Shown: one piece after another, positions 6,899 through 26,188 of the stretch | Layout of the letters: every line of letters begins with the position of its first letter | Position numbering within the stretch: position 1 is the first letter of the stretch | NCBI GenBank assembly: GCA_937891825.1 | Contig: CALAHN010000003.1 | Span: 1-58,686, forward strand | Direction of reading: 5' to 3' | Length of the DNA: 58,686 nt | Origin: an uncultured Alphaproteobacteria bacterium | GTDB lineage: Bacteria > Pseudomonadota > Alphaproteobacteria > Bin95 | Made by a program: the position numbers and the translations under genes | Notes under the pieces: model-generated | Database searches by the model: none | Told to the model about the DNA's origin: nothing | What the model saw: the letters and a program-made list of their open reading frames with translations, nothing else

Positions 6899-8403
6899 GC
6901 CTGTTCCCTCATTGCAGCGCCGGCCGGCGATAGCCTGACGCCCGCGCGAATTCTTTTGAACGCCAACGCCGCCGGGTCGGCGGCCATCGCGCCCGGCGCC
7001 GCGACATCGATGATCGTTTCGGCGATCGGCTGAAAATGCCCCCGGAAGTGCGCGGAACTCTTCAGGGCGAGAAATCGCATGGCGGCAGGCTCGATGCCAA
7101 GATGCCGGAAGCATTCCTGATCGGCCGCCTGCACCCTCTTGCCGACGACGACGATATCGACGCCGCCGAGACGGAGCCTGGCCGTCGGCGCGAGATCGAG
7201 CCGCGCCCCTTTATAGAGCGGCCCCGACCCGGTCATCCGGCCGTCCGCCGTTGCGATCACCTTGAACTCCCCGGGCAAGGGCTTGTCGCCCGGAACCCCG
7301 TGCTTGCCGCCGAGCGCCACCGAGATCAGCGCGCCCTCGCCGGCCTTGGCCGCGATCATCGCCACATGGGGATCGAAGATCAGGCCCGCCGCCGCGCCGG
7401 TCAGGCCAGCGTCGAGCATGGCGCGCAACAGTCCCATCGTGTCGCCCGTGCCGCCAGCGCCGGGATTGTCCTGAATGTCCGCCAGCACCACCGGCCGAAG
7501 GGCGCCTTCCGCCGCCTTGATCGCAATGGCGACGGCCGCCGCCGGGTCCAGCACGGCGCCGCCCCAATCGCGCTCGTGCGCCTCCACCAGATCGGCGACC
7601 TGATCGACGGCCGCCCGGACAGCGGCCGCGTCGGAGCCGTAGCCATAAACGCTCGGTCCGCAATCGGGGATGTCGGCCGCCGGAAAGCCGCCGGCGAAGG
7701 TCAGCAGCACGCCGGTTTCCGCCTCGATCCTTGCGACCGCGGCGACGACCTCCGCGGCAGGCTCGCGCATGGTGCACCCCGCGAACAGCGGGATCAGGAA
7801 CGGCGTCTGCCGGAACGCGGCGGCGGGCCGCGGGGCGCCCGACGCCAGATGCCCATCAAGCCAATCCGCCATGCGGGCGCCGGTCGCCGCCATGTCGGCA
7901 TGGGGATATGTGCGATAGCCTGTTATGGCGGTAGCCATCTCCAGCGCCTCAACCGACATGTTGGCGTGATAATCCAGCGTGACGACGATCGGCAGGCGCG
8001 GCCCAAGCTTCTGCCGGAGCCGCATCAGCAATTCGCCTTCGCCGTCGTCCAGATGCTCGGCGACCATGGCGCCATGCAGCGCCAGATAGAGCGCGTCGAC
8101 CGGACCCAGGGCCGCCAGTTCCTCGAACAGCATCTGGACGATGGCTTCATAGGCCGCCTCCGTCACTTGCGCCGAAGGATTGGCCGAAGCGAACAGCAAC
8201 GGCGCAATCGCATGCCCCCGGGCTGCCGCCCGCTCGACAAAGCCGGCAAGCGCCAGATTGTAGCCCTTGACCGCCGGCAGCACATCGGCGCCCCGCGTCA
8301 GGACAGGCCAGCTATAACCGGTTTCAAAATCCGTCAGCGTCGCCTTGTGGGGCGCGAAGGTATTGGTTTCGTGGCGAAAGCTGGCGACTGCAATGCGCGC
8401 CAT
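6895..8403 (-). CDS. M81 family metallopeptidase (MlrC-like)
   Basis: The 502-residue protein begins MARIAVASFRHETNTFAP, the N-terminal signature of the MlrC/M81 family, with His11 as a probable zinc ligand. Further family segments are ALHGAMVAEHLDDGEGELL, LDYHANMS and TGYRTYPHADMAATG, and the C-terminal domain has VLADIQDNPGAGGTGDTMGLLRAML. MlrC was described for the last step of microcystin-peptide breakdown, but homologues are widespread in organisms that never meet microcystin and their natural substrates are mostly unknown. It is the first gene of the operon that continues with the dehydrogenase and the M20 peptidase, and it is divergent from the CaiB gene. Confidence 0.9.
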   Translation of the reverse strand: MARIAVASFRHETNTFAPHKATLTDFETGYSWPVLTRGADVLPAVKGYNLALAGFVERAAARGHAIAPLLFASANPSAQVTEAAYEAIVQMLFEELAALGPVDALYLALHGAMVAEHLDDGEGELLMRLRQKLGPRLPIVVTLDYHANMSVEALEMATAITGYRTYPHADMAATGARMADWLDGHLASGAPRPAAAFRQTPFLIPLFAGCTMREPAAEVVAAVARIEAETGVLLTFAGGFPAADIPDCGPSVYGYGSDAAAVRAAVDQVADLVEAHERDWGGAVLDPAAAVAIAIKAAEGALRPVVLADIQDNPGAGGTGDTMGLLRAMLDAGLTGAAAGLIFDPHVAMIAAKAGEGALISVALGGKHGVPGDKPLPGEFKVIATADGRMTGSGPLYKGARLDLAPTARLRLGGVDIVVVGKRVQAADQECFRHLGIEPAAMRFLALKSSAHFRGHFQPIAETIIDVAAPGAMAADPAALAFKRIRAGVRLSPAGAAMREQA

Positions 8404-8518
8404 CAACGATCCTCCAGGTGCGGAACAGCCAGTCGGCCGGTTGAGCATAGCCGCCGTTCCCATGGGCGCAATGCAAAGCCTATAGTTCCAGCGATCTGCC
8501 GCAGAGGAGTCGCCCGCG

Positions 8519-11543: not shown

Positions 11544-12587
11544 TTAAGCGACCGCGATCCCGCCGCGGAGCGCGCCGGCTTCGACATTGCGCCACAGCAC
11601 CGCCTGATCGGCCGGCAACGCCCTGCTATTCGGCATCGAGAGCCAGAGCCGGTGGAGCAAGCGCGATTCGCCCTTGGCCGCATCGTCCACGAAGGCCGTG
11701 CGGGCATGATAGGTGATGTGGCTGTTGATCAGTTGAATGTCGCCCGGCGCCAGCATCATCCGGAACGCCAGTTCGTCGGCGACGGCCGCCAGCATGTCGA
11801 GCGCTTCCCATTGGGCGTCGGACATGCGCGGCGTTTCCGGCCGCAATTGGGCCGCTTCCACATATGTCCGCGAATAGTGGCTGGTCAGCTTGCCGTCGCG
11901 AATGCCGAATACCGGCAACGGGTAGATTTCATCGCCGCCGCCAGCTTCCTCCCCAAGCCGCGAGCGATAGATCGGCTGCAGCAGCAGTTCCAGAAGATCG
12001 GGCCGGCGCTGCAGAATGGCGTTGTAGACGGCGGCGGTGCTCGCGACACGGCTTTCGCCGCCGGACGCGGACCGGCGCGCCATCAGCAAGCCGACGACAT
12101 CGGTCCGGTCGGTGTGGTAGCGCAATTGGCCATTGCTGTAGGTCCTGGCCTTGGATGACAGAAAGACCTCGCCCTTGGCGTCGGCCATCTTTTCATGGCG
12201 CGCGCCAAGGTCGCCGGGCTCGGCCTGAATGTCGCGCATCATCTGCCCGGTATTGTCCTGGGCGACCGGGCGGCCGATCCAGTGGCCCATGCCCATCCAG
12301 ATCAGGCGGATATCATCCTGCGGCCGGTCGACCGGCAGGCCGCTGAGCAGCATCATGCCGCGGCCGGTCTCCAGTTGATCGGCGACGCCCTGGAGACGTC
12401 GCGCCATGGCGTCCAGCGGGAAGGTTTCGCGCGTCACGGTCAGCCAATCGGCGCCGGCGCGTTCAGCGTGACGCCGCGCGGCGTCCAGTTCGCGGATATC
12501 GGCCGCCGTCAGCCGGTAGGTCCAACTCCGGTCGGCTGCGAGATCGGCGCCGGTCCAGACCGACGGTCCTTCAAACGGTTTTGACAT
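11544..12587 (-). CDS. TauD/TfdA family Fe(II)/2-oxoglutarate dioxygenase
   Basis: The 347-residue protein has the facial-triad residues His158 and Asp160 (HTD in LRYHTDRTDV) and a distal His, most likely His294 in NSHITYHARTAF, with Arg313 (LLHRLWLS) placed to bind 2-oxoglutarate. The start at 12587 is supported by GGAGGG about 7 nt upstream; an in-frame extension to 12665 would run into the divergent promoter region. It is divergent from phnCDE and the PhnZ-like gene. In known oxidative phosphonate routes (PhnY/PhnZ, TmpA/TmpB) a 2-oxoglutarate oxygenase hydroxylates the phosphonate before an HD oxygenase cleaves C-P, so this may be the hydroxylase of this locus; that is inference from position. 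The gamma-butyrobetaine hydroxylase-type N-terminal zinc domain is absent. Confidence 0.87.
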   Translation of the reverse strand: MSKPFEGPSVWTGADLAADRSWTYRLTAADIRELDAARRHAERAGADWLTVTRETFPLDAMARRLQGVADQLETGRGMMLLSGLPVDRPQDDIRLIWMGMGHWIGRPVAQDNTGQMMRDIQAEPGDLGARHEKMADAKGEVFLSSKARTYSNGQLRYHTDRTDVVGLLMARRSASGGESRVASTAAVYNAILQRRPDLLELLLQPIYRSRLGEEAGGGDEIYPLPVFGIRDGKLTSHYSRTYVEAAQLRPETPRMSDAQWEALDMLAAVADELAFRMMLAPGDIQLINSHITYHARTAFVDDAAKGESRLLHRLWLSMPNSRALPADQAVLWRNVEAGALRGGIAVA

Positions 12588-12696: not shown

Positions 12697-13575
12697 ATGA
12701 CCACTGTAATCGAGATCAGCGATCTGTCGAAATCCTTTCGGCGCGGCACGCCCGTTCTGAAAGGCATCAACCTGACAGTCGAGGCCGGCGAACTGGTCGC
12801 GCTGATCGGGGCTTCGGGCTCCGGCAAATCGACATTGATCCGCCTGATCGCGGGTTTCGAGCGCCTTGACGCGAGCGGCGGCAAGATCCGCCTGCTGGGC
12901 GAGGCGGTGCAGCAGAACGGCAAACGCCTGAAAGCGCAGCGCCGGCTCCGGCGGGAGGTCGGGGTCGTCTTTCAGCAATTCAATCTGGTCGGCCGCCTGA
13001 CGCTGCTGAAGAACGTCCTGGCCGGCAGGCTTGGCCGGGCTTCCGGCTGGCGCGGCACGTTCGGATTGTTCAACGAGGCCGACAAGATCAAGGCGCTGAC
13101 CAGCCTGGAGCGGGTCGGCATGGTCGATTTCGCCCGTCGGCGCGCCTCCCAGCTCTCCGGCGGGCAGCAGCAGCGCGGCGCCATCGCCCGCGCGCTCGCC
13201 CAGGAAGCCCGGGTCATCCTGGCGGATGAGCCGATCGCATCCCTCGATCCGGCCTCCGCCGAGCGCGTCATGGAAATCCTCGCGGATATCAATGCGAAGG
13301 ACGGCGCGACGATCATCATTTCGCTGCATCAGATCGACCATGCCTTCAAGCATTGCCGCCGGATCGTCGCGCTGAAGGATGGCGAAATCGTCTTCGACGG
13401 CCCGACAAGCCAGATCCGGCCGAAAGATCTTACCGCGCTTTACGGCATCGACTTGAGCGAGCCCGAAAGCGACGAACCGAAGTCCGACCGCCCCGATCCG
13501 GGTCGGCAAAAGGGCGCGAAGGCGGGGGTCCGCGCCGTTCAGAACCAAGATGAACGCTTTCCCGCCGTCGTCTGA
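12697..13575 (+). CDS. phnC: Phosphonate ABC transporter ATP-binding protein PhnC
   Basis: The 292-residue ATPase carries Walker A GASGSGKST (about residues 42-50), Q-loop FQQFNLVGRLT, signature LSGGQQQRGAIARAL, Walker B VILADEPIASLDP and the H-loop ISLHQIDHA. The sequence VGRLTLLKNVLAGRLGR is typical of PhnC rather than other importers. The last 40 or so residues are a charged tail that looks dispensable. It energises uptake with PhnD and PhnE, which follow in order. A Shine-Dalgarno (AAGGAG) precedes the ATG. Confidence 0.93.
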   Translation: MTTVIEISDLSKSFRRGTPVLKGINLTVEAGELVALIGASGSGKSTLIRLIAGFERLDASGGKIRLLGEAVQQNGKRLKAQRRLRREVGVVFQQFNLVGRLTLLKNVLAGRLGRASGWRGTFGLFNEADKIKALTSLERVGMVDFARRRASQLSGGQQQRGAIARALAQEARVILADEPIASLDPASAERVMEILADINAKDGATIIISLHQIDHAFKHCRRIVALKDGEIVFDGPTSQIRPKDLTALYGIDLSEPESDEPKSDRPDPGRQKGAKAGVRAVQNQDERFPAVV

Positions 13576-13599: not shown

Positions 13600-14592
13600 A
13601 TGTTGAAACACCTCGTAACGGCGGTCGCCATCCTGGCGGCCGGCACGACCGCGGCGAAGGCCGAAATGCCGGAACAGCTTAACTTCGGCATCATCTCGAC
13701 CGAGTCCGCATCCGTCCTCGAAGCATCCTTCCAGCCGTTTCTGGATGACCTGTCGAAATCGCTCGGCGTGGCCGTGAAGCCGTTCTTCGCGTCCGACTAT
13801 GCCGGCGTCATCGAAGGCATGCGCTTCAAGAAAGTGGACATTGCCTGGTTCGGCAACAAATCCGCGATCCAGGCGGTCGACCGGGCCGGCGGCGAAGTGT
13901 TCGCCCAGACGATCAAGGACGATGGCACCAAGGGCTATCACTCGCTGCTCATCACACAAGTCGGCAGCGGCATCAATTCGCTCGCCGACGTGCTGAAGTG
14001 CGACAAGACCAAAACTTTCGGCAACGGCGACCCGAACTCCACCTCCGGCTTTGCGATCCCTGGATATTACGTCTGGGCCGTGAATAACATGACGCCGGAA
14101 AACTGCTTCAAGCGCGTCACCTCCTCGAACCATGAAGGCAACGCCCTCGCGGTCGCCAACGGCAAGGTCGATATCGCGACGAACAACACCGAATCGCTTT
14201 ATGCGCGCCTCGCCAAGAATCAACCGGAATCCGCCGCGAAAATCAAAGAGATCTGGCGCTCCCCGCTGATCCCGTCGGACCCGATTGTCTGGCGCGCCGA
14301 CCTCTCGGCCGACGCCAAGGCGAAGATCTACTACTTCTTCATGCAGTACGGCCGCTTCGGCGACATCGAGAAGGTCAAGCGCGAACGCGCGGTTCTGGCC
14401 AAGCTCTCGGACGGCTGGGGTCCCTTCCTTGCTTCCTCCAACGCCCAGTTGCTCGACGTCCGTCAGATCGAGGCCTTCAAGGCCAAGCTGAAGGCTGAGC
14501 AGGCCAATGACGCTGCAGGCGTCAAGGCTGCGAACGACGAACTCGCGCGCCTCGCCGAAATGGCGGCCGTGGTCGGTCAAGCCGGTTACTAA
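13600..14592 (+). CDS. phnD: Phosphonate ABC transporter substrate-binding protein PhnD
   Basis: The 330-residue periplasmic protein has a signal peptide with cleavage likely after AAKA (about residue 22) and the PhnD fold: NFGIISTESASVLEASFQPFLDDLSK written in pieces along the N-lobe, and the phosphonate-binding loop PNSTSGF with its Ser-Thr-Ser. The segments SNHEGNALAV and NGKVDIATNNTESL are also conserved in PhnD proteins. It captures phosphonates for the PhnCE permease. The end is rich in Lys/Ala helices. It lies 24 nt after phnC. Confidence 0.92.
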   Translation: MLKHLVTAVAILAAGTTAAKAEMPEQLNFGIISTESASVLEASFQPFLDDLSKSLGVAVKPFFASDYAGVIEGMRFKKVDIAWFGNKSAIQAVDRAGGEVFAQTIKDDGTKGYHSLLITQVGSGINSLADVLKCDKTKTFGNGDPNSTSGFAIPGYYVWAVNNMTPENCFKRVTSSNHEGNALAVANGKVDIATNNTESLYARLAKNQPESAAKIKEIWRSPLIPSDPIVWRADLSADAKAKIYYFFMQYGRFGDIEKVKRERAVLAKLSDGWGPFLASSNAQLLDVRQIEAFKAKLKAEQANDAAGVKAANDELARLAEMAAVVGQAGY

Positions 14593-14679: not shown

Positions 14680-15495
14680 ATGTCTATCGCATCGCTAGAA
14701 TTATCGCCCGCCGTTCAAGAACAACTCCGGCCACGCTGGACGACGTTCGCCGTCACCATGGGCGTCGGCCTGGCCATCGCGGCCTGCCTCGCGGTCGCCT
14801 ACGAGCCAGCGGAAGTCTTCAACTGGACGCTGCTCTTCACGGACGCCGCGAACATGGCGACCTTCGCTGGCGATTTCGCAAATCCCGACTTCACCGACTG
14901 GCGCATTTTCGCCGACAAGATCATGGAGACGATCTTCATCGCGCTTTGGGGCACGGCGCTTTCGATCCTGTTCGGCGCGCCGATCGCATTGCTCTGTTCG
15001 ACCAACATCGCGCCCTGGTGGGTCGTCCAGCCGATGCGGCGGATGATGGACGCAGCCCGCGCGATCAATGAAATCGTTTTCGCCATCCTGTTCGTCGCGG
15101 CCGTCGGACTTGGGCCGTTCGCCGGCGTCATGGCGATCTTCATCCACAATCTCGGCATCATCTCGAAGCTGTTTTCCGAAGCGGTCGAGGCGATCGACCC
15201 CCGCCCTGTCGAAGGCATCCGGGCGACCGGCGCCTCCCGCGTTCAGGAAATCGTCTACGGCGTCATTCCCCAGGTCATGCCGCTCTGGTCCAGCCTTATG
15301 CTTTATCGCTTCGAGACCAACGTCCGCAGCGCCACGGTGCTGGGCATCGTCGGCGCCGGCGGCATCGGCTTCACGTTCTACGAAAGCTTCCGGTCCTTCC
15401 AGTACGACCGGGCGTCCGCCATCATCATCCTCATCGTTCTGGCGGTCATGATTATAGACATCTGTTCCGCGCGCTTGCGGAAGTTCCTCGTGTAA
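14680..15495 (+). CDS. phnE: Phosphonate ABC transporter permease PhnE
   Basis: The 271-residue inner-membrane permease has an N-terminal helix (about 24-42), a periplasmic stretch, and a core membrane domain with the ATPase-coupling EAA-type loop (EAVEAIDPRPVEGIRATGAS, about residues 168-187) followed by YGVIPQVMP. The segments AARAINEIVFAILFV and ATVLGIVGAGGIGF are characteristic of PhnE. One permease gene only is present, so the transporter probably has a PhnE homodimer. Confidence 0.92.
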   Translation: MSIASLELSPAVQEQLRPRWTTFAVTMGVGLAIAACLAVAYEPAEVFNWTLLFTDAANMATFAGDFANPDFTDWRIFADKIMETIFIALWGTALSILFGAPIALLCSTNIAPWWVVQPMRRMMDAARAINEIVFAILFVAAVGLGPFAGVMAIFIHNLGIISKLFSEAVEAIDPRPVEGIRATGASRVQEIVYGVIPQVMPLWSSLMLYRFETNVRSATVLGIVGAGGIGFTFYESFRSFQYDRASAIIILIVLAVMIIDICSARLRKFLV

Positions 15496-15525
15496 TCAAA
15501 CACAGGGCAGGAAGAGGGCACGGCC

Positions 15526-16077
15526 ATGCAATTGATGTCTGTCAGCAACGCCTTTCACATTCTGGCGACGCGCGGCGACGGCGCCTACGGGCTGGCCGGG
15601 GTCACGCAACTGGAGCATGCGCTGCAATCGGCGGCCCTGGCCGACGCCCGGAAGCTTGGCCCGGCGTTCACGATCGCGGCGCTGTTCCACGACGTCGGCC
15701 ACCTTCTGACAGAAGATGACGTGGCGCTCGCGGAAGCAGGCATCGACGATCGCCATGAGGCTGCGGGCGCGGCGATGCTGGCGTCCCTGTTCGGGCCGGA
15801 GGTCGTAGAGCCGATCCGCCTGCATGTGCCGGCCAAGCGCTGGCTCTGTTCGGTCGAGCCGGATTACTTCGACCTGCTGGCGCCGGATTCAGTGCGGAGC
15901 CTGAGGCTGCAAGGCGGCGCCATGACGCTCGCCGAAGCGGCCGATTTCGCCAAGCAGCCCTACGCCATGGCCGCCGCCGACCTCAGGCGCGTCGATGACG
16001 AAGCGAAAATGCCCGGTCTCGCCGTGCCGCCGCTTGAAGCCTATCGCGCGCTGGCGGACGAACTCGCCCGGCGCTAG
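15526..16077 (+). CDS. PhnZ-like HD-domain diiron oxygenase (phosphonate degradation)
   Basis: The 183-residue protein belongs to the phosphonate-associated HD family. In PhnZ a mixed-valent diiron site, with ligands equivalent here to His31, His55, Asp56, His77, His100 and Asp157, oxidatively cleaves the C-P bond of a 1-hydroxyphosphonate. The second-shell or substrate residues also match: Tyr21, His59, Lys104, Arg154. The Glu that contacts the substrate ammonium in PhnZ, three residues after the Tyr, is Ala24 here (Y-G-L-A), suggesting a substrate without a primary amine. The correspondence comes from motif spacing and remembered PhnZ numbering, not an alignment run. It lies 30 nt after phnE. 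Confidence 0.85.
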   Translation: MQLMSVSNAFHILATRGDGAYGLAGVTQLEHALQSAALADARKLGPAFTIAALFHDVGHLLTEDDVALAEAGIDDRHEAAGAAMLASLFGPEVVEPIRLHVPAKRWLCSVEPDYFDLLAPDSVRSLRLQGGAMTLAEAADFAKQPYAMAAADLRRVDDEAKMPGLAVPPLEAYRALADELARR

Positions 16078-16138: not shown

Positions 16139-17380
16139 GTGCATCTGAACGACGAGGAGCGGGCCATGCTCGCCGGCGCCATGGGGCCGGCGCGGCAGTG
16201 GGCGATGGATCATCAAATGCAGGTCGGGCGCATGTTCGACGCGGCGGACATGGTTCCCGTCAGTCAGGCGCATATGATGGCCGACCCCGAAAGCCTGGGC
16301 GACGCTGGCGTCAGTTTCGTCGAAGCTTTCGCCGGATTGCCGGAGCCGGAGCGGCGCGTCCGCGTGCCGATGATCACCGATCCGCGCGGCGTCGATCTCT
16401 CCTGCTACGATCCCCTTGGCCAGACCGAGGCGATGGCCGACCTCGAGCGCCGCTTCATCGCCGCCTGTCAGGCCCTCGGCATCATGATGACCGACACCTG
16501 CATCAATTATCAGACGATCATGCCGCCGGTGTTCGGCGACCATGTCGCCTATGGCGACACCGGCGTCGTGATCTATTCGAACAGCGTTTGCGGCGCCCGA
16601 TCCAACTTCGAGGGCGGGCCGTCGGCCCTTGCGGCCGGCCTGACCGGGCGCACCCCGCGCTATGGCCTGCATCTGGACCGGCATCGCCGCGCGACCCGCC
16701 GCTTCCTCGTCGAGACGCCTCCGGTCGAGTTGACCGATTGGGGCGTGCTCGGCGCCGTCATCGGCCGGAAGGCGGGCTCCTATTGGGCCGTGCCGGTCAT
16801 CGAAGGCATCGACACGGCGCCGACATCCGACCAGATCAAGCATTTCGGCGCGGCCATGGCGAGTTATGGCTCGACGCCGCTGTTTCACATCGTCGGCGTG
16901 ACGCCGGAAGCGCCCGACCTCAAGGCTGTCGGCGGCGACGGCCTGGCGGCGGAGCGGATCGGCGCTGACGATCTTGCCGCCCTCCGCGCCGATTTCGGCG
17001 GCGAGGGCGACAAGGTCGATGTCGTGGTGTTCGCCGCCCCGCAATTGTCGCTGGTCGAAATGCGGCAGCTCGCCGCGATCTGCGCCGGCCGCCGCCGCCA
17101 TGCCGATACCGACGTCATCGTCTGCACCGCGCCCAGCGTCTATGCCGACGCCGAGCGCATGGGCTTCAACGCGACCTTGCAGGCGTTCGGCGCGACCGTG
17201 CTGCAAGGCACCTGCTTCTACCAGCAATATGCCCGCGAGATCGGCGAGGCGAACGGCTGGACGCGGCTGCTCTCGAACTCGGCCAAGATCGTGAACATTC
17301 TGGGCGGCTACGGCTACAAGCCAGCGCTGGCCTCGATGGCGGCTTGCGTCGCCTCGGCCGAGAAAGGGGAGATCGTCTGA
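16139..17380 (+). CDS. Aconitase X large (catalytic) subunit, AcnX type II
   Basis: The 413-residue protein is a DUF521/AcnX large subunit: MHLNDEERAMLAG at the N-terminus, HMMADPESLGDAGVSFVE, DTCINYQ (Cys121), SNSVCGARSNFEGGPSAL (Cys151) and QGTCFYQQ (Cys359), which supply probable iron-sulfur ligands. Biochemically known bacterial AcnX enzymes dehydrate cis-3-hydroxy-L-proline; an archaeal relative dehydrates mevalonate 5-phosphate. Start is GTG with GGAG upstream. The gene follows the PhnZ-like gene by 61 nt on the same strand, so it could be co-transcribed with the phosphonate genes. No proline racemase or dehydrogenase that would complete hydroxyproline catabolism is visible. Confidence 0.87.
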   Translation: MHLNDEERAMLAGAMGPARQWAMDHQMQVGRMFDAADMVPVSQAHMMADPESLGDAGVSFVEAFAGLPEPERRVRVPMITDPRGVDLSCYDPLGQTEAMADLERRFIAACQALGIMMTDTCINYQTIMPPVFGDHVAYGDTGVVIYSNSVCGARSNFEGGPSALAAGLTGRTPRYGLHLDRHRRATRRFLVETPPVELTDWGVLGAVIGRKAGSYWAVPVIEGIDTAPTSDQIKHFGAAMASYGSTPLFHIVGVTPEAPDLKAVGGDGLAAERIGADDLAALRADFGGEGDKVDVVVFAAPQLSLVEMRQLAAICAGRRRHADTDVIVCTAPSVYADAERMGFNATLQAFGATVLQGTCFYQQYAREIGEANGWTRLLSNSAKIVNILGGYGYKPALASMAACVASAEKGEIV

Positions 17381-17790
17381 TGCCGCGCGAACTGAAATGC
17401 CATCCCGGCATCGGCCCGACGGTCGCCGGCGAAGCTCTGACCGCGGCGGATAATTTTTCAGCGCGCTATGATCTTGACCGCATCAAGGGCATTTTCTCCA
17501 GGCCCCAGCATGCGCTGGCCGGTCAGTCCTACAAGGACAAGATCCTGGTGCTGAACACGGCCAAGGGCGGCGTCGCGTCCGCCTGGATGCTGCACGAGAT
17601 GAAAGCGCGCGGCATTGCGCCGAAAGCCATCCTGTTCAACGCCGCCAACACCATCCTCGCCCAGGGCGCGGCCCTGGCCGACATGGCCATGTGCGACCGC
17701 TTCGAGGACGGCGATGTGACGACGCTGATCCCCACAGGCGCCCGCGTGACCGTCTATCCGGCGGAAGGCCGGGTCGTCATCGAAGACTGA
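17380..17790 (+). CDS. Aconitase X small (swivelling) subunit, DUF126
   Basis: The 136-residue protein is the separate small subunit of AcnX type II. It shows ISF-type features HPGIGPTVAGEALTA, FSRPQHALAGQSYKDKILVL with Ser50 as the candidate catalytic base, NTAKGGVASAWML, and the C-terminal DGDVTTLIPTGARVTV. The ATG shares one base with the stop of the large subunit (TGATG), giving translational coupling. It converges with the ThDP enzyme gene, 2 nt away. Confidence 0.88.
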   Translation: MPRELKCHPGIGPTVAGEALTAADNFSARYDLDRIKGIFSRPQHALAGQSYKDKILVLNTAKGGVASAWMLHEMKARGIAPKAILFNAANTILAQGAALADMAMCDRFEDGDVTTLIPTGARVTVYPAEGRVVIED

Positions 17791-17792
17791 GA

Positions 17793-19388
17793 TCAGTGCC
17801 CGGCGCCGCTCGGCGCGGCGAGGCCGTCGATCTCGACGTTGACGCAAGCCGGCTTGCCGGATGCGCTGGCGCGCGCCAGCGCCGCGTCCAGGTCGGCCGG
17901 ATCCGTTACATACTCGCCGTGACAGCCAAGCCCGGCCGCCGCCAAATCGTATCGGGCGCCGCTCAATTCGCAGCCCATCGTGCGCTGGGCGCCGTAGTCC
18001 CGGACCTGGATCTGGTATTCGGCATTCCAGCGCCGGTCATTGCCGATGACCGCGACGAAAGCGGCGCCGGATCGTGCGGCCGTTTCAAACTCGGCCAGAT
18101 GAAAGCCGACCGTGCCGTCGCCCATCACGGCGATCACCTGGGCGTGCGGCCGGGCCAACGCGGCGGCGACCGCGTAGCAGAGACCGCCGCCGATGGCGCC
18201 GCCGGGCCCGTTGATCAGGCGCGCGTCGCCCTTGAGGCCGGCTTGCGCCCATTGGCCGATCTCGCCGCCATCCAGGACCAGCACGGTTTCGCCTGCCCGG
18301 TCGATCTGCCGCTGGATCGCGGTCGTCAGATCGAGCGGCGAGATGCCCTTGGTCCTGGGGCAAGGCGCGCGCTTGGCAGTCAGCGCCGCCACTTCGTCCC
18401 GCCAAGCTTGCGCGCTGGGCGTGGGGGCGGGGGCGCCGGCGATCAGCGCTTCGGCCGTCGGTCGCGGATCGGCGACGACCGCCAGCGCCAGGCGGTCGCC
18501 GAGATTGCGCGCGGCTTGCGCCTGGGCTGCGGTGTCGCCGTCGACGACGATCCAGGGACAGCCAGGCGCAAACGCCTCCGCCGCGCCGAAGCCAAGCGTG
18601 AAGTCAATCGATTTGCCGAGCGCCAGCGCCAGATCCGCCTGCTTGAAGACGCCCGCCAGATCGCCGAGCGAAGGGTCTTTCAGGCCGCGCGGGCTTTCGA
18701 GGCAGAGAACCGCCGCGCCAGTGTGGGCTTCAAGCGCCGCCAGGAGCGCGCCAGCCCGGGTCCAGTTCAGCGCTGGCCCCGTCACGATCAACGGCCGTTC
18801 AGCGGCAGCAAGCCTCGCCAGCGCCGCCGCCACATCGTCCGCGCCCGGCGCCTTTGGCTCAACGGCGCGGAACGGCGCCGGCGCTGCCGGGCATTCCGCC
18901 TGCAACACATCGAAGGCGAGCGCGATATGGCAGGGTCCGGGACGGCCGGACGCCGCGCATTCGAGGGCCGCCGCGACATCTTCCGCCAGTGCGGCGGCGG
19001 TCGTCGGCCGGAAGCCGGCCTTCACCAGCGGCCGCGTGATCGCCAGTTGATCGAGTTCCTGAAACGCGCCCCGACCGTCCTGACTGACCGGGGAATCCCC
19101 CGTCAGCAACAGCAGCGGCGTTTCCGATTTCGTCGCGGAATAGAGCGGCCCCAGGGAATTCCCGAAGCCCGGCGCGGCCGTCGTCAGGGCGACGCCGACC
19201 TGTCCCGTCAATTGCGCCCAGGCCTCCGCCATGAACACCGCCGCCGCCTCGTGGCGCACATGCACGATCTCGACGCCAAGATCGATGCACGCGTCATAGA
19301 CCGGCATGATCTGGTTGCCGGAAAGACTGAAAATCCGCTCGACGCCGACCGCCGCCAGCGTCTGAACCAAGCTATCCGCGCCCCTCAT
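17793..19388 (-). CDS. Thiamine diphosphate-dependent enzyme (acetolactate synthase-like)
   Basis: The 531-residue protein has the three-domain layout of ThDP decarboxylases/synthases: a PYR domain with the catalytic Glu47 in VRHEAAAVFMAEAWA, a central domain (about 180-330), and a PP domain with the Mg/ThDP motif MGDGTVGFHLAEFETA ... GNDRRWN. The exact reaction is not evident; relatives include acetolactate synthase, benzoylformate decarboxylase and oxalyl-CoA decarboxylase. Its ATG overlaps the tctA stop (ATGA), making it the final gene of the TTT block and implying that it handles a 2-oxo acid derived from the imported carboxylate. Confidence 0.87.
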   Translation of the reverse strand: MRGADSLVQTLAAVGVERIFSLSGNQIMPVYDACIDLGVEIVHVRHEAAAVFMAEAWAQLTGQVGVALTTAAPGFGNSLGPLYSATKSETPLLLLTGDSPVSQDGRGAFQELDQLAITRPLVKAGFRPTTAAALAEDVAAALECAASGRPGPCHIALAFDVLQAECPAAPAPFRAVEPKAPGADDVAAALARLAAAERPLIVTGPALNWTRAGALLAALEAHTGAAVLCLESPRGLKDPSLGDLAGVFKQADLALALGKSIDFTLGFGAAEAFAPGCPWIVVDGDTAAQAQAARNLGDRLALAVVADPRPTAEALIAGAPAPTPSAQAWRDEVAALTAKRAPCPRTKGISPLDLTTAIQRQIDRAGETVLVLDGGEIGQWAQAGLKGDARLINGPGGAIGGGLCYAVAAALARPHAQVIAVMGDGTVGFHLAEFETAARSGAAFVAVIGNDRRWNAEYQIQVRDYGAQRTMGCELSGARYDLAAAGLGCHGEYVTDPADLDAALARASASGKPACVNVEIDGLAAPSGAGH

Positions 19389-20890
19389 GTGCGTTTTTCC
19401 TCAAGCAGCTTGCTGCGCACGCGCAGGCCCGCCCGCGCGATTGCGACGACGGTGAGCACGGTCAGGCCCCAGAAGAACCAGGTGATCGGGCCGCGAAACA
19501 GGATTTCCGGCGACCCGCCGGACATCAGCATCGACTGGCGAAAATTGTCCTCCAAGAGCGGGCCGAGGATGAATGCGATCAGGAACGGGGCCGCCGGGAC
19601 GCCGAAGCGCAACATCATGAAGCCGACCCAGCCCATGGCGAACATCACGCCGATATCGAAGATGTTGTTGTTGACCGCGAAGACGCCATAGACGCACAGC
19701 ACCAGCACGACCGGGAACAGCAGCGCCTTCGGAATGTCGGCGACGAAGCGGAACCCCCGGATCGCCACGGTGCCGATGAAGAACAAGGCGATCGAACTGA
19801 TGATCAGGCCGAGGAACAGCCCGTAGATGATGTCGGCATTGGCGACGAACATCATCGGGCCGGGCTGCAGGCCATGCACCATGAAGGCGCCGATGATGAT
19901 GGCCGTGATCACGTCCCCCGGCACCCCCAGCGCCAGCAGCGGGATCAAGGTGGCGCCGGCGACGCCGTTGTTGCCCGATTCGGAGGCCGCCACGCCTTCG
20001 ATCTCGCCCTTGCCGAAATTGTCGCGGTTCTTGGATTTTCGCCGAGCTTCGCTGTAGGAGAGGAACGCCGCAGGCGCCGCGCCGATGCCGGGGATGCTGC
20101 CCAGCACCACGCCAATCAAGCTGCCGCGCACGATGGTCTTGAAGCAGCGCCGGTAGTCGAGCCAGGTGACCCAGCCGCCGCCGAGGCCCCGCGCCTGCCC
20201 TTCCTGGCCCTTCGGGTTCCAGACCATGGTCAGGATTTCCGGGATGGCGAACAGGCCGATCAGAACCGCGATGAAGTTCAAACCGCCCATCAGGTTCGGA
20301 TCGTTGAAGTTGAAGCGGTTGGTGCCGTAAACGAGGTCCAGGCCCACGGTCGCGAGCAGCAGGCCCATGATCGCCGAGATCAGGCCCTTCAGCAGGCTGT
20401 CGCCGGAAACGCCGGCAATAATGGTCAGCGAGAACAGGATCAGCGTGAAGAATTCCGGCGGCCCGAAACTCAACGCGAACGAGGCGAGCCAGCCGGCGAA
20501 CAGGATCAGCGCCAGATTCGAGATCAGGTCGGCTGTGCAGGAGGCCCAGAGCGCCATACCAAGCGCGCGGCCGGCCTGGCCTTTTTCCGCCATCGGATAG
20601 CCGTCGAGCACGGTCGCGCTGGACGCCGGCGTCCCCGGCGTCTTGATTAGGATGGCGGGAATGCTGCCGCCGAAAATCCCGCCCTTGTAGACGCCGACCA
20701 GCAGCAGAATGCCGGTGATGGGCGTCATCGCGAAGGTGAACGGCAAGGTCAAGGCGACGGCCATGGTCGCGGACATGCCGGGAATAGCCCCGGCGATCAC
20801 GCCGACGAGCACGCCGCCGACCAGGGCCAGCAAGCTTTCGAGGCTCCAGACCAGCGCCAGACCGGCGGCGAAGCTATCCATCAAGCTCAT
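19385..20890 (-). CDS. tctA: Tripartite tricarboxylate transporter large permease TctA
   Basis: The 501-residue membrane protein has about 11-12 helices and the TctA hallmark GAIPGMSATMAVALTLPFTF, GGSIPAILIKTPGTPASSATVLDGYPMA, LGSIPGIGAAPAAFLSYSEARR and ALGVPGDVITAIIIGAF. It forms the translocation pathway for carboxylates delivered by TctC, driven by an ion gradient. The frame stays open upstream through tctB, but the start MSLMDSF at 20890, overlapping the tctB stop by 4 nt, fits the family; a second Met three codons later is possible. Confidence 0.93.
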   Translation of the reverse strand: MSLMDSFAAGLALVWSLESLLALVGGVLVGVIAGAIPGMSATMAVALTLPFTFAMTPITGILLLVGVYKGGIFGGSIPAILIKTPGTPASSATVLDGYPMAEKGQAGRALGMALWASCTADLISNLALILFAGWLASFALSFGPPEFFTLILFSLTIIAGVSGDSLLKGLISAIMGLLLATVGLDLVYGTNRFNFNDPNLMGGLNFIAVLIGLFAIPEILTMVWNPKGQEGQARGLGGGWVTWLDYRRCFKTIVRGSLIGVVLGSIPGIGAAPAAFLSYSEARRKSKNRDNFGKGEIEGVAASESGNNGVAGATLIPLLALGVPGDVITAIIIGAFMVHGLQPGPMMFVANADIIYGLFLGLIISSIALFFIGTVAIRGFRFVADIPKALLFPVVLVLCVYGVFAVNNNIFDIGVMFAMGWVGFMMLRFGVPAAPFLIAFILGPLLEDNFRQSMLMSGGSPEILFRGPITWFFWGLTVLTVVAIARAGLRVRSKLLEEKRT

Positions 20891-21369
20891 GGCAGGCGCA
20901 CCAGTTCGCCCTGCGGCACGCCGACGCCCGCCACATGGGCGAAGAACGCATAGAGCAACAAGGGCGCCGCGACCGCCACGACCGCCGTCAGCAGTGGCCG
21001 CTTCGCCTGCATCAGGAAGGCGACGGCGACGATCGCGACGATCGAGGTCCAGACCATGCCCAGGGTCGAGATCGTCATCACATAAGCCAGCATGATGACC
21101 GCGATCGCGCCGAGCCGCGCCCAGCCGCCGGGCACATCCGACAGGCGTTCGTCGCGCGCGCCCGGCGGCAGCCGGAACGCGGTCAGAACCAGACCGGCCC
21201 CGCCGAAGGCCAGAATGCCCGCCAGCACGTACGGCCAGAACAGGGGCGACAGCACGATATTGCGGACATTGCTCGGGCTGCTGACGCCATACGGAATGCC
21301 GGCCAGCATCAGGAACGCGGCGCCGGCAAGCGCCGCGCCGCCGACGCACAGGAATGATTGCTTGGACAT
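20887..21369 (-). CDS. tctB: Tripartite tricarboxylate transporter small membrane subunit TctB
   Basis: This 160-residue protein has four predicted helices and the usual TctB pattern: an N-terminal helix, the external YGVSSPSNVRNIVLSPLFWPY, a second helix, and two C-terminal helices. TctB proteins are poorly conserved, so the assignment depends mainly on topology and position between tctC and tctA. Translation is coupled to tctA by an ATGA overlap. Confidence 0.85.
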   Translation of the reverse strand: MSKQSFLCVGGAALAGAAFLMLAGIPYGVSSPSNVRNIVLSPLFWPYVLAGILAFGGAGLVLTAFRLPPGARDERLSDVPGGWARLGAIAVIMLAYVMTISTLGMVWTSIVAIVAVAFLMQAKRPLLTAVVAVAAPLLLYAFFAHVAGVGVPQGELVRLP

Positions 21370-21474
21370 GGACGCTCTACATCCGGGCCAGGAAATATCG
21401 AAGAGGCAAGCGCCCGCCGGCGCCGCCGCTCACGGTCCTGATGGAGCGCGAAACGGCGGCGCCGGGCATCGTCT

Positions 21475-22452
21475 CTAGTTCTCGATCCGCATGCCGAGGT
21501 CATCCACAAGCTTGCGGAAGACCGCGTACTGACCTTCGATGAAAGCTTGGGATTCCGCCGGCTGCATCAATCTGATGACTGACCCGCGCGATTCCATCTT
21601 CTGGCGGAAATCGGCGTCATCGGTCGCTGTCTTCATCCAGGCGCCCCATTTGGCCGCGATGTCGTCCGGCAGATCGTCCGGGCCGGCGATGCCGGTCCAG
21701 CCCACCAGTTGCGTCAGCGCCGGCTTGCCGAGATCGGCGGAGGTCGGCGCGTCGAAGCCGACGATCGGCTCCGCGGTCGTCACCAGCAGCGGCTTCAATT
21801 GCTTGTTCGCAACGAAGCTGGCGAGCGCGGAGGAATTCGTGCAGATGAAGGTCGCCGTGTCGTTCAACACGGCCGTCGCCGCCGCGCCGCCGCCTTTCAG
21901 CGGGATATGGATCGCATCCTTGACCGGATCGGCGATGCCGAATTCCTTCAGGACATAAGCCGCCGCGATATGCAGCAAGGAGCCGACGCCGGAGGAACTA
22001 TAGCTGACGCCGCCTGCTTTCACCTTGGCGATGAGATCGTCGATCGTCTTGATATCGCTATCGGCCTTGACGGCGCAGGCGACCGGATTGATCTCATAGA
22101 CGCCGACGAAGCGGAAATCCGCGAGGGTGTAGGGCAGCGTCGCTTTCATCGCCGGGTTGACGGTGTGCGAGCCGACGCGGGCGAACAGCATGGTGTAGCC
22201 GTCGGGCTTCGCGTTCTGGACGGCGACCGAACCGGTCGCGCCGCCCGCGCCAGCGCGATTGACCATGATGACCGGCGAGCCGACCGCCTCGCCCAGCGCC
22301 TCGGCGATGGTCCGCGCCGAGATATCGGTCGCGCCGCCCGGGCCATAGGGGATAATCATGGTGATTGGGCGTTCTGGATAATCCGCCATGGCGGCGGTCG
22401 CGGAGGCCGAGATGGCCAGCGCGGCAAGCGCAGCCTTCAATCCAAATTTCAT
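21475..22452 (-). CDS. tctC: Tripartite tricarboxylate transporter substrate-binding protein TctC (Bug family)
   Basis: The 325-residue periplasmic protein has a signal peptide (MKFGLKAALAALAISASATA, cleavage near AMA-DYPE), followed by the Bug-family YPERPITMIIPYGPGGATDISART and VNRAGAGGATGSVAV, which coordinate carboxylate through backbone contacts. The family binds mono-, di- and tricarboxylates and amides; the ligand cannot be inferred. GGGAGAG provides a strong ribosome binding site. It starts 59 nt after the fumarase beta gene, and tctB follows after 105 nt. Confidence 0.92.
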   Translation of the reverse strand: MKFGLKAALAALAISASATAAMADYPERPITMIIPYGPGGATDISARTIAEALGEAVGSPVIMVNRAGAGGATGSVAVQNAKPDGYTMLFARVGSHTVNPAMKATLPYTLADFRFVGVYEINPVACAVKADSDIKTIDDLIAKVKAGGVSYSSSGVGSLLHIAAAYVLKEFGIADPVKDAIHIPLKGGGAAATAVLNDTATFICTNSSALASFVANKQLKPLLVTTAEPIVGFDAPTSADLGKPALTQLVGWTGIAGPDDLPDDIAAKWGAWMKTATDDADFRQKMESRGSVIRLMQPAESQAFIEGQYAVFRKLVDDLGMRIEN

Positions 22453-22511
22453 CGCTCTCTCCCGTTTCTTCTATGTCTACTGCTGTAAGCCTAGACCATA
22501 TTGCGCGCCTG

Positions 22512-23189
22512 CTAAATCATTTCATCGCTGCGGTCGTCAGTTTCGCCGAAGCGTTTCAGCACGGCCGGGCGCGTGCCTTCGTAGACTTTCGCCAGACCGG
22601 CGGCGATTTTCTTGTTCTCGCGCTCGAACAAGCTGTCGCCGTTCATATCGCTCTCGACGATGAACGGCCCGAAATTCGACACCTCAAGCACCCACATCGC
22701 CTGGGCCAGGCCAAGTTCCTTGCGCCAATGCACATCCTTGACCCGCGTGATGCCGCGCCCGAGCAGGGCGCCCGTGCCGTAGCCGACCGTCGTCAGGTAG
22801 ATCGCGCCATGGGGCACGAAGTGGCGCTTGTAGTCGGCGGACGTCATGCCGCCCTTGCCCAGGATCAACTTCGCCCCGGAAAGCGCAAGCCACTCGCCGA
22901 TCCATTTCGAGAACCGGAAAGAGGCCGTCGCCGTCACCGCGCCGATGGCGATCGTCCCATCCTCCGCGATCGAGGCGGCTGGCGAGCAGTGGAAGTTGGC
23001 GCCGCTCTCCAGCGGCAGGGTCATCGGCAAGGGCGCGCCATCCTGCAATGCGCGCATGTAGGCGCCTTCGCGGGCCGTGTAGACCGTGCCGTCCAGATAG
23101 ACGACGTCGCCAAGCTTGAGGTCGGCCAGCGCTTCCGGCGTCGGCTCCGTGCTCAGGCGGACTTTTTTGAATTTTCCGGCATCTGCCAT
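22512..23189 (-). CDS. Class I fumarase/L(+)-tartrate dehydratase-type beta subunit
   Basis: The 225-residue protein matches the C-terminal/beta domain of iron-sulfur hydro-lyases: LKLGDVVYLDGTVYTARE, PAASIAEDGTIAIGAVTATASFRFSKW, LILGKGGMTSADYKRHFVPHGAIYLTTVGYGTGALL. It provides catalytic residues for hydration of an unsaturated dicarboxylate, together with the alpha subunit. The chosen ATG at 23189 lies 37 nt inside the upstream alpha gene; longer frames continue into unrelated reading of that gene. Class I enzymes are known that prefer fumarate, L-tartrate or mesaconate. Confidence 0.88.
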   Translation of the reverse strand: MADAGKFKKVRLSTEPTPEALADLKLGDVVYLDGTVYTAREGAYMRALQDGAPLPMTLPLESGANFHCSPAASIAEDGTIAIGAVTATASFRFSKWIGEWLALSGAKLILGKGGMTSADYKRHFVPHGAIYLTTVGYGTGALLGRGITRVKDVHWRKELGLAQAMWVLEVSNFGPFIVESDMNGDSLFERENKKIAAGLAKVYEGTRPAVLKRFGETDDRSDEMI

Positions 23190-24115
23190 CCGACCGTCTC
23201 CCGGCGTTGAAAGGGGGTGAACCATTCGGGGTCGGTCCGATGTTCGACGCGGCCGTCGCCATGCACCCGGGCGACCGCGCGCCGGGAGGACAGGCAGAAG
23301 GCGTGGACGCTCATCTGCATGCCGCCCGTGTGGCAATAACCAACCTCGATATGGCAGTCGATCACCATGGAATTGCCGACAAAGCCCATGGCGCCCATCC
23401 CGATGGAATTGCCGAGCTCCTTGAACTCTTCCTCGAGCGCCGCGATCTTCGGGTCCGGGTTGCGGTCGCCGACCGTGCGGAGGCAGGCGGCGCGCTTGCC
23501 GAGCACCATGCAGGTATCCTTGGAGCCGCCAAGCCCGATCCCGATGATCGCGGGCTGGCAGGCAAGGCCCCGCTTGCCGAACGCCACGAGGCTATCGAGA
23601 TAGAACCGCTTGATGCCCTCGATCCCGTCCGACGGGAACAGCATCCGGTAGTCGGTGCCGAACAGGCCGCCCTTATGGACGGTCGTCAGGTCGATCCAGT
23701 CGCCGCCCGGCTCAAAGCCGTACTCGATTTCAGGCGCCCCGATGCCGACATTGTTGTCATGGTCCGTGCGCCAGAGCGGATGCACCCGGTTTGGGCGCAG
23801 CGGCACGTTCTGCGTGGCGTTGGCGGTCGCCCGGCGGAGCGCTTCCTCCAGCGCCACCGGCCCGCCCTCGATCCGGGCGTCGTTGCCGAGCTTGACGTAC
23901 CAGCGCGGGCAGCCGGTGTCGCCGCACATGGCGCGGCGGTCTTCCTTGGCGGCCTCGTAATTCTCAAGCATCGCCTGGAGCACGAAAGAGGAGAGATCGC
24001 CGTCCTCCGCGTCCGCCGCCTGTTTCAGGCCGGTCAAATAGTCGTCCGGAATCTCGATGGCGGCTTGCGCCATCAGCTTCTCGGCCGTCTCCTGGATCAC
24101 GTCGATCGAAATCAT
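23153..24115 (-). CDS. Class I fumarase/L(+)-tartrate dehydratase-type alpha subunit
   Basis: The 320-residue protein carries the iron-sulfur domain: AMCGDTGCPRWYVKLG (Cys64 as a probable cluster ligand), NVPLRPNRVHPLWRTDHDNN, IGIGLGGSKDTCMVLGKRA, and IEVGYCHTGGMQMSVHAFC. With the beta subunit it should add water reversibly to fumarate or a substituted fumarate in the cytoplasm. It overlaps the flavoprotein gene by 4 nt upstream and the beta gene by 37 nt downstream. Linkage to a succinate dehydrogenase-like complex makes sequential oxidation and hydration of a dicarboxylate the likely role. Confidence 0.88.
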   Translation of the reverse strand: MISIDVIQETAEKLMAQAAIEIPDDYLTGLKQAADAEDGDLSSFVLQAMLENYEAAKEDRRAMCGDTGCPRWYVKLGNDARIEGGPVALEEALRRATANATQNVPLRPNRVHPLWRTDHDNNVGIGAPEIEYGFEPGGDWIDLTTVHKGGLFGTDYRMLFPSDGIEGIKRFYLDSLVAFGKRGLACQPAIIGIGLGGSKDTCMVLGKRAACLRTVGDRNPDPKIAALEEEFKELGNSIGMGAMGFVGNSMVIDCHIEVGYCHTGGMQMSVHAFCLSSRRAVARVHGDGRVEHRTDPEWFTPFQRRETVGWQMPENSKKSA

Positions 24116-25842
24116 TGGGCGGCCTCCTGGGGCTCTTTCAGCAAGGTTTCGCCGGGACGGACGATGGTAAACTCGACGGGCGCCCGCTCGACGCGCAATT
24201 CGCCGCCGGTCTGCCGCGCCACAGTGAAATATGAGGCGTCGAGATCGCCGGCGTCGGTGAAGTCTTCCCGGTAGTGCGCGCCCCTGGAATTCTCGCGGCT
24301 GAGCGCGGCGCGCGTGATGACCTCCGAGGTTTCGACGAGGCTCTGCATGTTCAGCCAGTCATGCCAGGTCAGGTTGAACGCGCGACTGCCGCCCGCGATG
24401 CCGGTCTCGGCAAGCTCCGCCCGGATGTCCGCCAGTTTCTCCAGGCCCCGGCGAAGGCCCGGGCCGTTCCTGAGCACGCCGACATCGTCCCACATCGCAT
24501 CCATCAACTTCAGGCGAAGCGCATGAACGTCGCCTGTCGCCTTGCCGATCGGCTTCAGCGCGCGGGCGACTTCGGCGTCGAGCACGGCCTCGTCGATATC
24601 CTTCAGCGCGCCGGCCGCTTCCCTGGCCATGACATCGCCCGCGATGCCGCCATAAACGGTGGAGTTCGCGACGCCATTGCCGCCCAGGCGGTTGGAGCCG
24701 TGGGCGCCGCCCGCGTCCTCGCCCGCCACATAGAGGCCCGGCATCTCGGTCCGCGTATCCACGTCGACGACGATGCCGCCCATCAGGTAATGCGCCGTCG
24801 GCACGACCTCGACCAGGCCGCCAGCCAGATCGAAGCCGCAATCGGCGCAACGCTTGACCATGCCCTTGAACTTTTCCGCGACCAACTCCGGCCCAAGATG
24901 CGCCATCGAGATGTAGACGCCGCCGTTGGGCGACGTGTTGGACTTGCGCATTTCGTCATAGATCGCCCGGCTGACGATATCGCGCGTCGCCCGCTCGCCG
25001 CCTTCGGCATAGTCGAACATGAAGCGGCGTTCCTGGCCGTTCAGCAGATAGCCGCCGGCGCCCCGCAGGCCTTCTTCCAGCACAGTGCCCGTCATCCGCG
25101 TGCCCTCGCCCGCCAGCAGGCCGGTCGGGTGAAACTGCACCATCTCCATATCCCGAAGCGGCAGGCCCGCCCGCAGCGCCATGGCGAGGCCGTCCATGGT
25201 CTTGTCGCCCGAGGGCGTGTGGTAGCGGTACATGGTCGGCCCGCCGCCGGTCGCCATCAGCACGGTCTGGGCGCGGACCAGCCGGAAGCCGCCGGTGCGC
25301 ATATCGATGAACAGCACGCCCGCCAGCCCCTCGCCGCCCCTGGCCGGGATCAGGGCGATGGCGCGGTGCTCCTCCAGCCGGTCGATCGGGCGCTTCAGCA
25401 CCTGTTCCATCAGTCGGGAGATGATTTCGATGCCGGTCAGATCGCCTTTGTGGACCGTGCGGTCGAAGGTCTGGCCGGCGAAGGCTTTCTGGTGGACGGT
25501 GCCGTCGGGATTGCGGTCGAAGAAGCAGCCGATCTCATTCTCAAGCTCGCGGATGCGGGTGACGGCGGTTTCGACGAGCCGCCAGGCCATGTCTTGGTTC
25601 GGCAGCCACTTCCCGCCCTCGATCGTGTCCATGAAATGCCGCTCGATGCTGTCGCCGGGCGCCAGCGCCACATTGTAGCCGCCTTGCACCATGCGGGTGC
25701 AGCCGCACTTACCGACCAGACCCTTGACCGCGATGGCGACGCGCTTCTCCGGCGCCGCCTTCTGGGCATGGAGCGCGGCGAACAGGCCCGCGCCGCCAGT
25801 GCCGATGATCAGGATGTCCGTATCGAAGCGATCTATCTGCAT
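24112..25842 (-). CDS. Succinate dehydrogenase/fumarate reductase-like flavoprotein subunit
   Basis: The 576-residue protein has the FAD dinucleotide motif DILIIGTGGAGLFAALHAQ and SdhA/FrdA/aspartate oxidase segments: VLEEGLRGAGGYLLN with the active-site Arg, HYLMGGIVVDVDT, and YVAGEDAGGAHGSNRLGGN. At the usual flavinylation site (H-T-x-x-x-Q-G-G in SdhA) this protein reads Cys48-T-R-M-V-Q-G-G, so the flavin-linking His is replaced by Cys. It is coupled to the class I fumarase genes and preceded by two membrane subunits. It may oxidise succinate or a substituted succinate; the main TCA-cycle enzyme is probably encoded elsewhere. Confidence 0.88.
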   Translation of the reverse strand: MQIDRFDTDILIIGTGGAGLFAALHAQKAAPEKRVAIAVKGLVGKCGCTRMVQGGYNVALAPGDSIERHFMDTIEGGKWLPNQDMAWRLVETAVTRIRELENEIGCFFDRNPDGTVHQKAFAGQTFDRTVHKGDLTGIEIISRLMEQVLKRPIDRLEEHRAIALIPARGGEGLAGVLFIDMRTGGFRLVRAQTVLMATGGGPTMYRYHTPSGDKTMDGLAMALRAGLPLRDMEMVQFHPTGLLAGEGTRMTGTVLEEGLRGAGGYLLNGQERRFMFDYAEGGERATRDIVSRAIYDEMRKSNTSPNGGVYISMAHLGPELVAEKFKGMVKRCADCGFDLAGGLVEVVPTAHYLMGGIVVDVDTRTEMPGLYVAGEDAGGAHGSNRLGGNGVANSTVYGGIAGDVMAREAAGALKDIDEAVLDAEVARALKPIGKATGDVHALRLKLMDAMWDDVGVLRNGPGLRRGLEKLADIRAELAETGIAGGSRAFNLTWHDWLNMQSLVETSEVITRAALSRENSRGAHYREDFTDAGDLDASYFTVARQTGGELRVERAPVEFTIVRPGETLLKEPQEAAQ

Positions 25843-25843
25843 G

Positions 25844-26188
25844 TCATGCGGCGCTCAGGAAAAAGGTTGTGGAGACGAGGAAGGCCAGCGCCGTCGCCGC
25901 CGCGATGAAGGTCTTCTGACGGGACGACCACGGCAGGAACTCCAGCGCCAAGAGACGCAACCCTCCGAAGAAATGCACGGCCAACAGGAAGACCAGGCCC
26001 CATTCCGCCAGCTTGACCGGCGTCGAGGCCGTGAGCGCGAGAAACCCGTCAAGCGCATCCGGCCCCGTCAGCGCCATCGCCAGCACATAGAAATGCACTG
26101 GCAGGAACAGGGCCAGCAACAAGCCGGATGTGCGGTGGAGCATGAAGGCATACCAGAGCGGATGCCCGCGATGCGGCCGCACCTTCAT
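25844..26188 (-). CDS. Succinate dehydrogenase cytochrome b-type membrane subunit
   Basis: The 114-residue protein has three predicted helices. FMLHRTSGLLLALFLPVHFY resembles the H-R-x-S-G quinone-site signature of SdhC, and FLLAVHFFGGLRLLALEF carries a His in the position of the heme b ligand (H-x-x-x-G-x-R). It would anchor the flavoprotein and iron-sulfur subunits and pass electrons to quinone. The ATG at 26188 overlaps the stop of the neighbouring membrane subunit (ATGA), which favours it over an ATG at 26203. One nt separates it from the flavoprotein gene. Confidence 0.82.
   Translation of the reverse strand: MKVRPHRGHPLWYAFMLHRTSGLLLALFLPVHFYVLAMALTGPDALDGFLALTASTPVKLAEWGLVFLLAVHFFGGLRLLALEFLPWSSRQKTFIAAATALAFLVSTTFFLSAA

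Follow-up and report, generated by a model that had tools for sequence, protein, structure and literature searches.

The best described relatives of the oxygenase considered here are PhnZ of HF130_AEPn_1 (4mlm, 4mln, 4n71) and TmpB of Leisingera caerulea (6npa), both of which carry a lid loop with a YxxE motif (for the motif and residue roles, see PMC8177086). Upon substrate binding, the Glu of this motif swings inward and touches the amino group of the substrate, and the Tyr leaves iron 2 (reviewed in PMC8177086; for the Glu contact, see also PMC7916636). A third enzyme, GmPhnZ1 of Gimesia maris, acts on hydroxymethylphosphonate, a substrate with no amine; its substrate-binding residues are reported to match those of PhnZ and TmpB (PMC11203657). 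A further type, PhnHD of Achromobacter (PMC11203657), is represented by the profile TIGR03276 ‘Phn-HD’.

The window analyzed here, a stretch of 58,686 nucleotides from an uncultured alphaproteobacterium, encodes at positions 15526–16077 (plus strand) an HD-domain diiron oxygenase of 183 amino acids, which sequence and fold place in the PhnZ/TmpB superfamily and, within it, in a Glu-less clade that we term YGLx. The ORF is a genuine gene whose product has the PhnZ/TmpB fold. A pseudogene reading was dropped, as the ORF is intact. A ribosome-binding-site-like ggaagagg (15510–15517, plus strand, read directly from the DNA) ends 8 bases 5’ of the ATG. In phmmer searches against PDB sequences, the protein retrieved TmpB (6npa, 3.3e-27) and PhnZ (4mlm, 3.8e-15), with alignments that are collinear from the Tyr through the last Asp. 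The AlphaFold2 model (mean pLDDT 89.8) gave TmpB and PhnZ as the only best Foldseek and VIA matches (Z ~25–27, 1.8–2.6 Å), followed in rank by MIOX (Z 11–12). The gene is the final one of a co-directional phnC-phnD-phnE-HD cassette and begins 30 bases past the phnE stop codon; phnC (phosphonate ABC transporter ATPase, 12697–13575), phnD (phosphonate-binding protein, 13600–14592), and phnE (phosphonate permease, 14680–15495), all on the plus strand, score above the cut-offs of TIGR02315, TIGR03431, and TIGR01097, respectively. Because the HD gene ends this cassette, its substrate or a precursor thereof is most likely imported by PhnCDE. Sequence, fold, metal ligands, and the phnCDE operon thus bear out the original prediction of a PhnZ-like diiron oxygenase.

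The diiron ligand set H...HD...H...H...D is complete in the alignment, with H31, H55, D56, H77, H100, and D157 corresponding to PhnZ H34, H58, D59, H80, H104, and D161. The second-shell residues Y21, H59, K104, and R154 correspond to PhnZ Y24, H62, K108, and R158, so that all ten residues picked out from the sequence beforehand align with their PhnZ counterparts; Ser122 is the equivalent of PhnZ Ser126. What is missing is the amine-contacting Glu of the YxxE lid loop, which reads YGLA instead (Tyr21-Gly22-Leu23-Ala24; codons at 15586–15597, plus strand), with A24 in the position of PhnZ E27 and TmpB E33. An alignment artefact was considered and dropped, since A24 is placed without gaps by both phmmer and MAFFT, and relatives with a shorter loop (YGE-) still put their Glu in the same column. 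The predicted replacement of Glu by Ala24 was hence confirmed by alignment with PhnZ and TmpB, and the PhnZ numbering given there proved correct. A second substitution concerns the residue preceding the Ser126 equivalent, where Asp121 takes the position of PhnZ Ala125 (Asp121-Ser122 codons at 15886–15891, plus strand). PhnZ Glu27 mutants were not found in our literature search, which did not extend to the primary PhnZ/TmpB papers.

TmpB is the closest solved relative in sequence and in fold (Z 26.6, 34% identity) and shares all diiron ligands and the lid Tyr, but it has YxxE (Y30/E33) in place of YGLA, an Ala in place of Asp121, and a TmpA partner; with the TmpB model NF049941, the HD oxygenase reaches 131 bits, below the cut-off of 300. 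PhnZ is similar in fold (Z 24.7–26.6), in the ligands, and in the equivalents of Lys108, Ser126, and Arg158, yet differs in that its Glu27, Gly26, and Ala125 are replaced by Ala24, Leu23, and Asp121 and that a gene for a PhyH-type PhnY* is absent from the window’s contig. The better of the two substrate-defined NCBIfam models is that of GmPhnZ1 (hydroxymethylphosphonate dioxygenase, NF052439), with 155 bits, although this is well under the cut-off of 300; judged by this profile rather than by the GmPhnZ1 sequence itself, Glu is rated over Ala in the lid loop (+2 to +7 bits). TIGR03276 is the best profile match (184.7 bits) and shares the phosphonate operon context, but here, too, the score stays below the curated cut-off (214.6), and at position 24 the model gives Glu an advantage of 4 bits.

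We gathered relatives at 23 named loci and in whole genomes drawn from the family, the class, the phylum, and a selection of orders. They split into two types, YxxE and YGLx (Tyr-Gly-Leu-Ala/Ser/Thr), the latter present in many Alphaproteobacteria. A private mutation was dropped as an explanation, the Glu-less state being common to many genomes. In a set made non-redundant at 80% identity, Glu occupies the PhnZ-27 position in all 77 Glu-type relatives, and Ser, Ala, Thr, or Tyr occupies it in the 15 YGLx sequences, the HD oxygenase included. At the PhnZ-125 position, Asp is found in 47/47 distinct YGLx sequences, among them the HD oxygenase with Asp121, a count in which membership of the Glu-less group was assigned on positions 27 and 125 jointly, with no YGLx sequence excluded for a missing Asp; of the Glu-bearing sequences, 6/104 have Asp here versus 98/104 with Ala, Gly, Thr, Val, or Gln. 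When every column of the 80%-identity set was scanned, the largest group differences fell on PhnZ positions 27, 26, and 125 (divergences 1.00, 0.94, and 0.80; next 0.64). The Ser126 equivalent is invariant in both groups, and the diiron ligands, the lid Tyr, and the active-site Lys, Ser, and Arg (K104, S122, R154) are invariant across the YGLx clade. We define this clade by the Y-G-L-[AST] loop together with the Asp before the Ser126 equivalent, both of which the HD oxygenase possesses (Y21 G22 L23 A24, D121 S122). The Glu-less state is thus real and appears to define a clade, and a substrate switch is a plausible interpretation. The branch is apparently undescribed so far. We found no biochemistry on any Glu-less member.

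In a tree calculated without the trait columns, holding the Glu-less sequences together gave the higher likelihood (AU p 0.785), with many weak branches; as far as these sequences go, they are compatible with a single clade. Because they fit one clade, positions 27 and 125 possibly changed only once, and their co-occurrence does not prove compensation, since it perhaps reflects one event and independent pairs are too few. In our reading, the paired changes amount to a joint remodeling of the substrate site that possibly includes a relocated carboxylate and may go back to one historical event. Six sequences from other classes (L120, L121, L126, L128, L129, and L130) combine Glu27 with Asp125 and form one well supported clade, possibly representing an intermediate state.

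As the lid Glu is gone and a nearby Ala has become Asp, the substrate cannot simply be transferred from the studied relatives, and the specificity of the HD oxygenase has likely changed. One possibility, which we put forward tentatively, is that the substrate is still an aminophosphonate, for example (R)-1-hydroxy-2-aminoethylphosphonate or its N-methyl form, and that Asp121 replaces Glu27 at the ammonium. The retention of Asp121 beside the invariant Ser122 in every Glu-less sequence would be in line with such a relocation of the carboxylate, as would the six sequences combining Glu and Asp. Further in its favor, every sequence with a wholly read loop has an acidic loop residue, the Asp, or both; only L133, whose loop is unreadable, departs from this. 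The same reading draws support from one Glu-less relative (L071, YGLT), whose operon also encodes PhnX, a 2-aminoethylphosphonate-binding protein (phnS2), and a TIGR03364 flavin oxidoreductase, each scoring over its cut-off. This is an aminophosphonate setting: flavin oxidoreductases in such clusters oxidize N-methyl-aminoethylphosphonate (PMC10590968), and PhnZ homologues within phnWX/phnWAY clusters have been tied to (R)-1-hydroxy-2-aminoethylphosphonate (PMC8154272). The relocation is weakened, however, by the Glu27/Asp125 pair possibly being a single phylogenetic event and by the position of Asp121 at the start of a helix (120–128 in the model), which it may merely cap; moreover, another loop position is still acidic in 34/47 clade members, although the HD oxygenase is not among these.

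The original prediction took the loss of the Glu to make a non-amine or substituted 1-hydroxyphosphonate likely, such that removal of the side chain would just free room for a bulky substrate or drop a charge. This would accord with the disappearance of precisely the residue that contacts the amino group (PMC7916636, PMC8177086) and with the Gly26-to-Leu change, which renders the lid more hydrophobic throughout the clade. Yet the published and profile evidence (PMC11203657; NF052439) suggests that GmPhnZ1 keeps the lid Glu, and because an enzyme with a non-amine substrate appears to do so, the Glu is no marker of amine substrates. Given, in addition, that a Glu-less gene sits in the aminoethylphosphonate operon of L071 and that the clade as a whole has gained an acid beside Ser126, which may offer a carboxylate from a different side, the step from Glu loss to a non-amine substrate finds no support, and we regard a non-amine or bulky substrate as rather doubtful.

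Phosphonate genes occur within 8 kb at similar rates in the two types, namely in 6/16 Glu-less and 18/45 Glu-bearing loci. In one Glu-less locus (L070), the order phnD-phnE-HD recurs, adjoining C-P lyase genes, and in three others (L060–L062), the HD gene lies between C-P lyase genes and phnCDE. Ten of the 16 Glu-less loci have no phosphonate genes within 8 kb, and in one order (that of G368; L154–L183), the clade profile finds a strong match in 70/76 genomes, for which reason part of the YGLx clade looks like a core gene. The distinct copies fetched from this order among the best 30 are all YGLS with Asp, and no phosphonate genes were seen near the oxygenase in the loci read (L069, L081). The role of part of the clade may thus be wider or different, and in the extreme, part or all of it could be HD oxygenases that cleave another C-X bond, with the phn context being incidental. 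MIOX, which has the same fold, cleaves a C-C bond (PMC8177086), and two Glu-less oxygenases have neighbors of other kinds: at L063:5799-10763, a YGLA oxygenase gene lies directly 3’ of a DddP-like lyase gene and near DMSP-demethylase-like and TRAP transporter genes, and at L088:1848-8548, a DddP-like relative and a sulfoacetaldehyde acetyltransferase are encoded close by. Nonetheless, we consider this quite improbable in view of the invariance in the clade of K104, S122, and R154, which are common to PhnZ and TmpB, and of the location of the gene within phosphonate operons in the window, L060–L062, L070, and L071. Other neighbors recur as well. A PHP/CehA-type metallohydrolase gene adjoins the YGLx oxygenase gene on the opposite strand in two genomes (L066:7542-8456, L068:9242-10162), and in most Acidimicrobiaceae loci (L013–L029), an ABC ATPase gene lies after the oxygenase gene and converges with it.

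On balance, the HD oxygenase is probably a C-P-cleaving enzyme for an imported 1-hydroxyphosphonate, by analogy with PhnZ and TmpB. Equipped with a mixed-valent Fe2/Fe3 diiron cofactor, it would bind the 1-hydroxy group and the phosphonate of a small organophosphonate, an iron-superoxo species would take the C1 hydrogen, and the C-P bond would be broken to yield phosphate and a carboxylic acid, as in the two studied enzymes. The substrate end of the pocket would have been rebuilt in the clade, by exchange of the lid Glu for Ala/Ser/Thr, of the preceding Gly for Leu, and of the Ala before the invariant Ser for Asp, and because of this rebuilding, the HD oxygenase probably has a specificity of its own. 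Either Asp121 would take over the grip on the amine from Glu27, or no amine would be present in the substrate. Carrying speculation further, YGLx might constitute an undescribed functional class in which the substrate-gripping acid has shifted off the mobile lid (Glu27) and onto the wall next to Ser126 (PhnZ 125), with a new substrate and an altered substrate-sensing switch at the lid Tyr; although we deem this somewhat unlikely, it would imply that some phnZ counts assigned to 2-aminoethylphosphonate in surveys are something else. Such counts serve to infer the oceanic use of 2-aminoethylphosphonate. One ocean survey names phnZ the dominant strategy (PMC9381506), and another, in which tmpB-like and G. 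maris-like types were split off, arrived at far lower phnZ numbers (reviewed in PMC10574752); a Glu-less clade that is common and has another substrate would matter for these figures. The clade also makes a mechanistic question testable, namely whether the release of the lid Tyr that the substrate triggers depends on the lid Glu or whether an acid elsewhere in the pocket is enough.

A related issue is the origin of the 1-hydroxy group. Divergent from phnC, with starts about 110 bases apart, lies a gene for a TauD-family Fe/2-oxoglutarate oxygenase (11544–12587, minus strand), a candidate α-hydroxylase partner whose closest PDB sequences are 7n7v and FrbJ (5eqn). FrbJ belongs to a phosphonate antibiotic pathway. 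Since its closest solved relatives include FrbJ, the TauD protein has the look of an α-hydroxylase, and a two-enzyme pathway akin to PhnY*/PhnZ and TmpA/TmpB can be envisaged, in which TauD would act first, hydroxylating C1 of the imported phosphonate, and the product would be cleaved by the HD enzyme. At two other Glu-less loci (L063, L088), TauD-family genes lie within ~6 kb of the HD gene, which would fit this scheme, yet the proteins encoded there are about as distant from the window’s TauD as FrbJ is. TauD orthologues (45–76% identity) are scattered in the class and share no common partner, with phnDE or an HD gene nearby in 0/20 loci. A genome of the same genus (G013) encodes an orthologue with 76% identity yet contains nothing that matches the HD protein, and the tauD-phnC intergenic stretch lacks a PhoB/Pho-box-like site, matches across the window being at chance level. 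As a fixed partner, TauD is thereby weakened, and we judge the two-enzyme pathway unlikely. Considering the 20 TauD loci without phnDE or HD and the HD-free genome, phnCDE-HD rather looks like a self-contained cassette beside TauD; the imported compound would then already be a 1-hydroxyphosphonate, or else TauD was recruited locally. Among the PDB matches of the TauD protein, no chain was named TmpA, whose presence in the library is uncertain; we found no paper on 7n7v (‘predicted hydroxylase’), and a single-sequence structure model of TauD was unusable (mean pLDDT 32). A PhyH-type PhnY* partner does not adjoin the HD gene in any of the 16 genomes searched, and none of the PhyH matches of the window’s genome lies on the window’s contig.

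Elsewhere in this genome, contig C40 carries C-P lyase genes (phnGHIJ plus two for ATPases), and neither phnD nor phnE turned up beside them in the 14 kb read; a phosphonatase PhnX gave no match above cut-off. Downstream of the HD gene, the window continues with an organic-acid catabolic island (16139–17790 and 17793–26203) that encodes the large and swivel subunits of aconitase-X and also a TPP enzyme, a Tct-type three-gene transporter, and fumarase- and flavoprotein-like proteins. An ORF at 6895–8463, assigned to the same island, putatively resembles microcystinase C/M81-type proteins by eye. In G013, the TauD orthologue, AcnX, and Tct genes lie on one contig in a cluster like that of the window, without phnCDE-HD.
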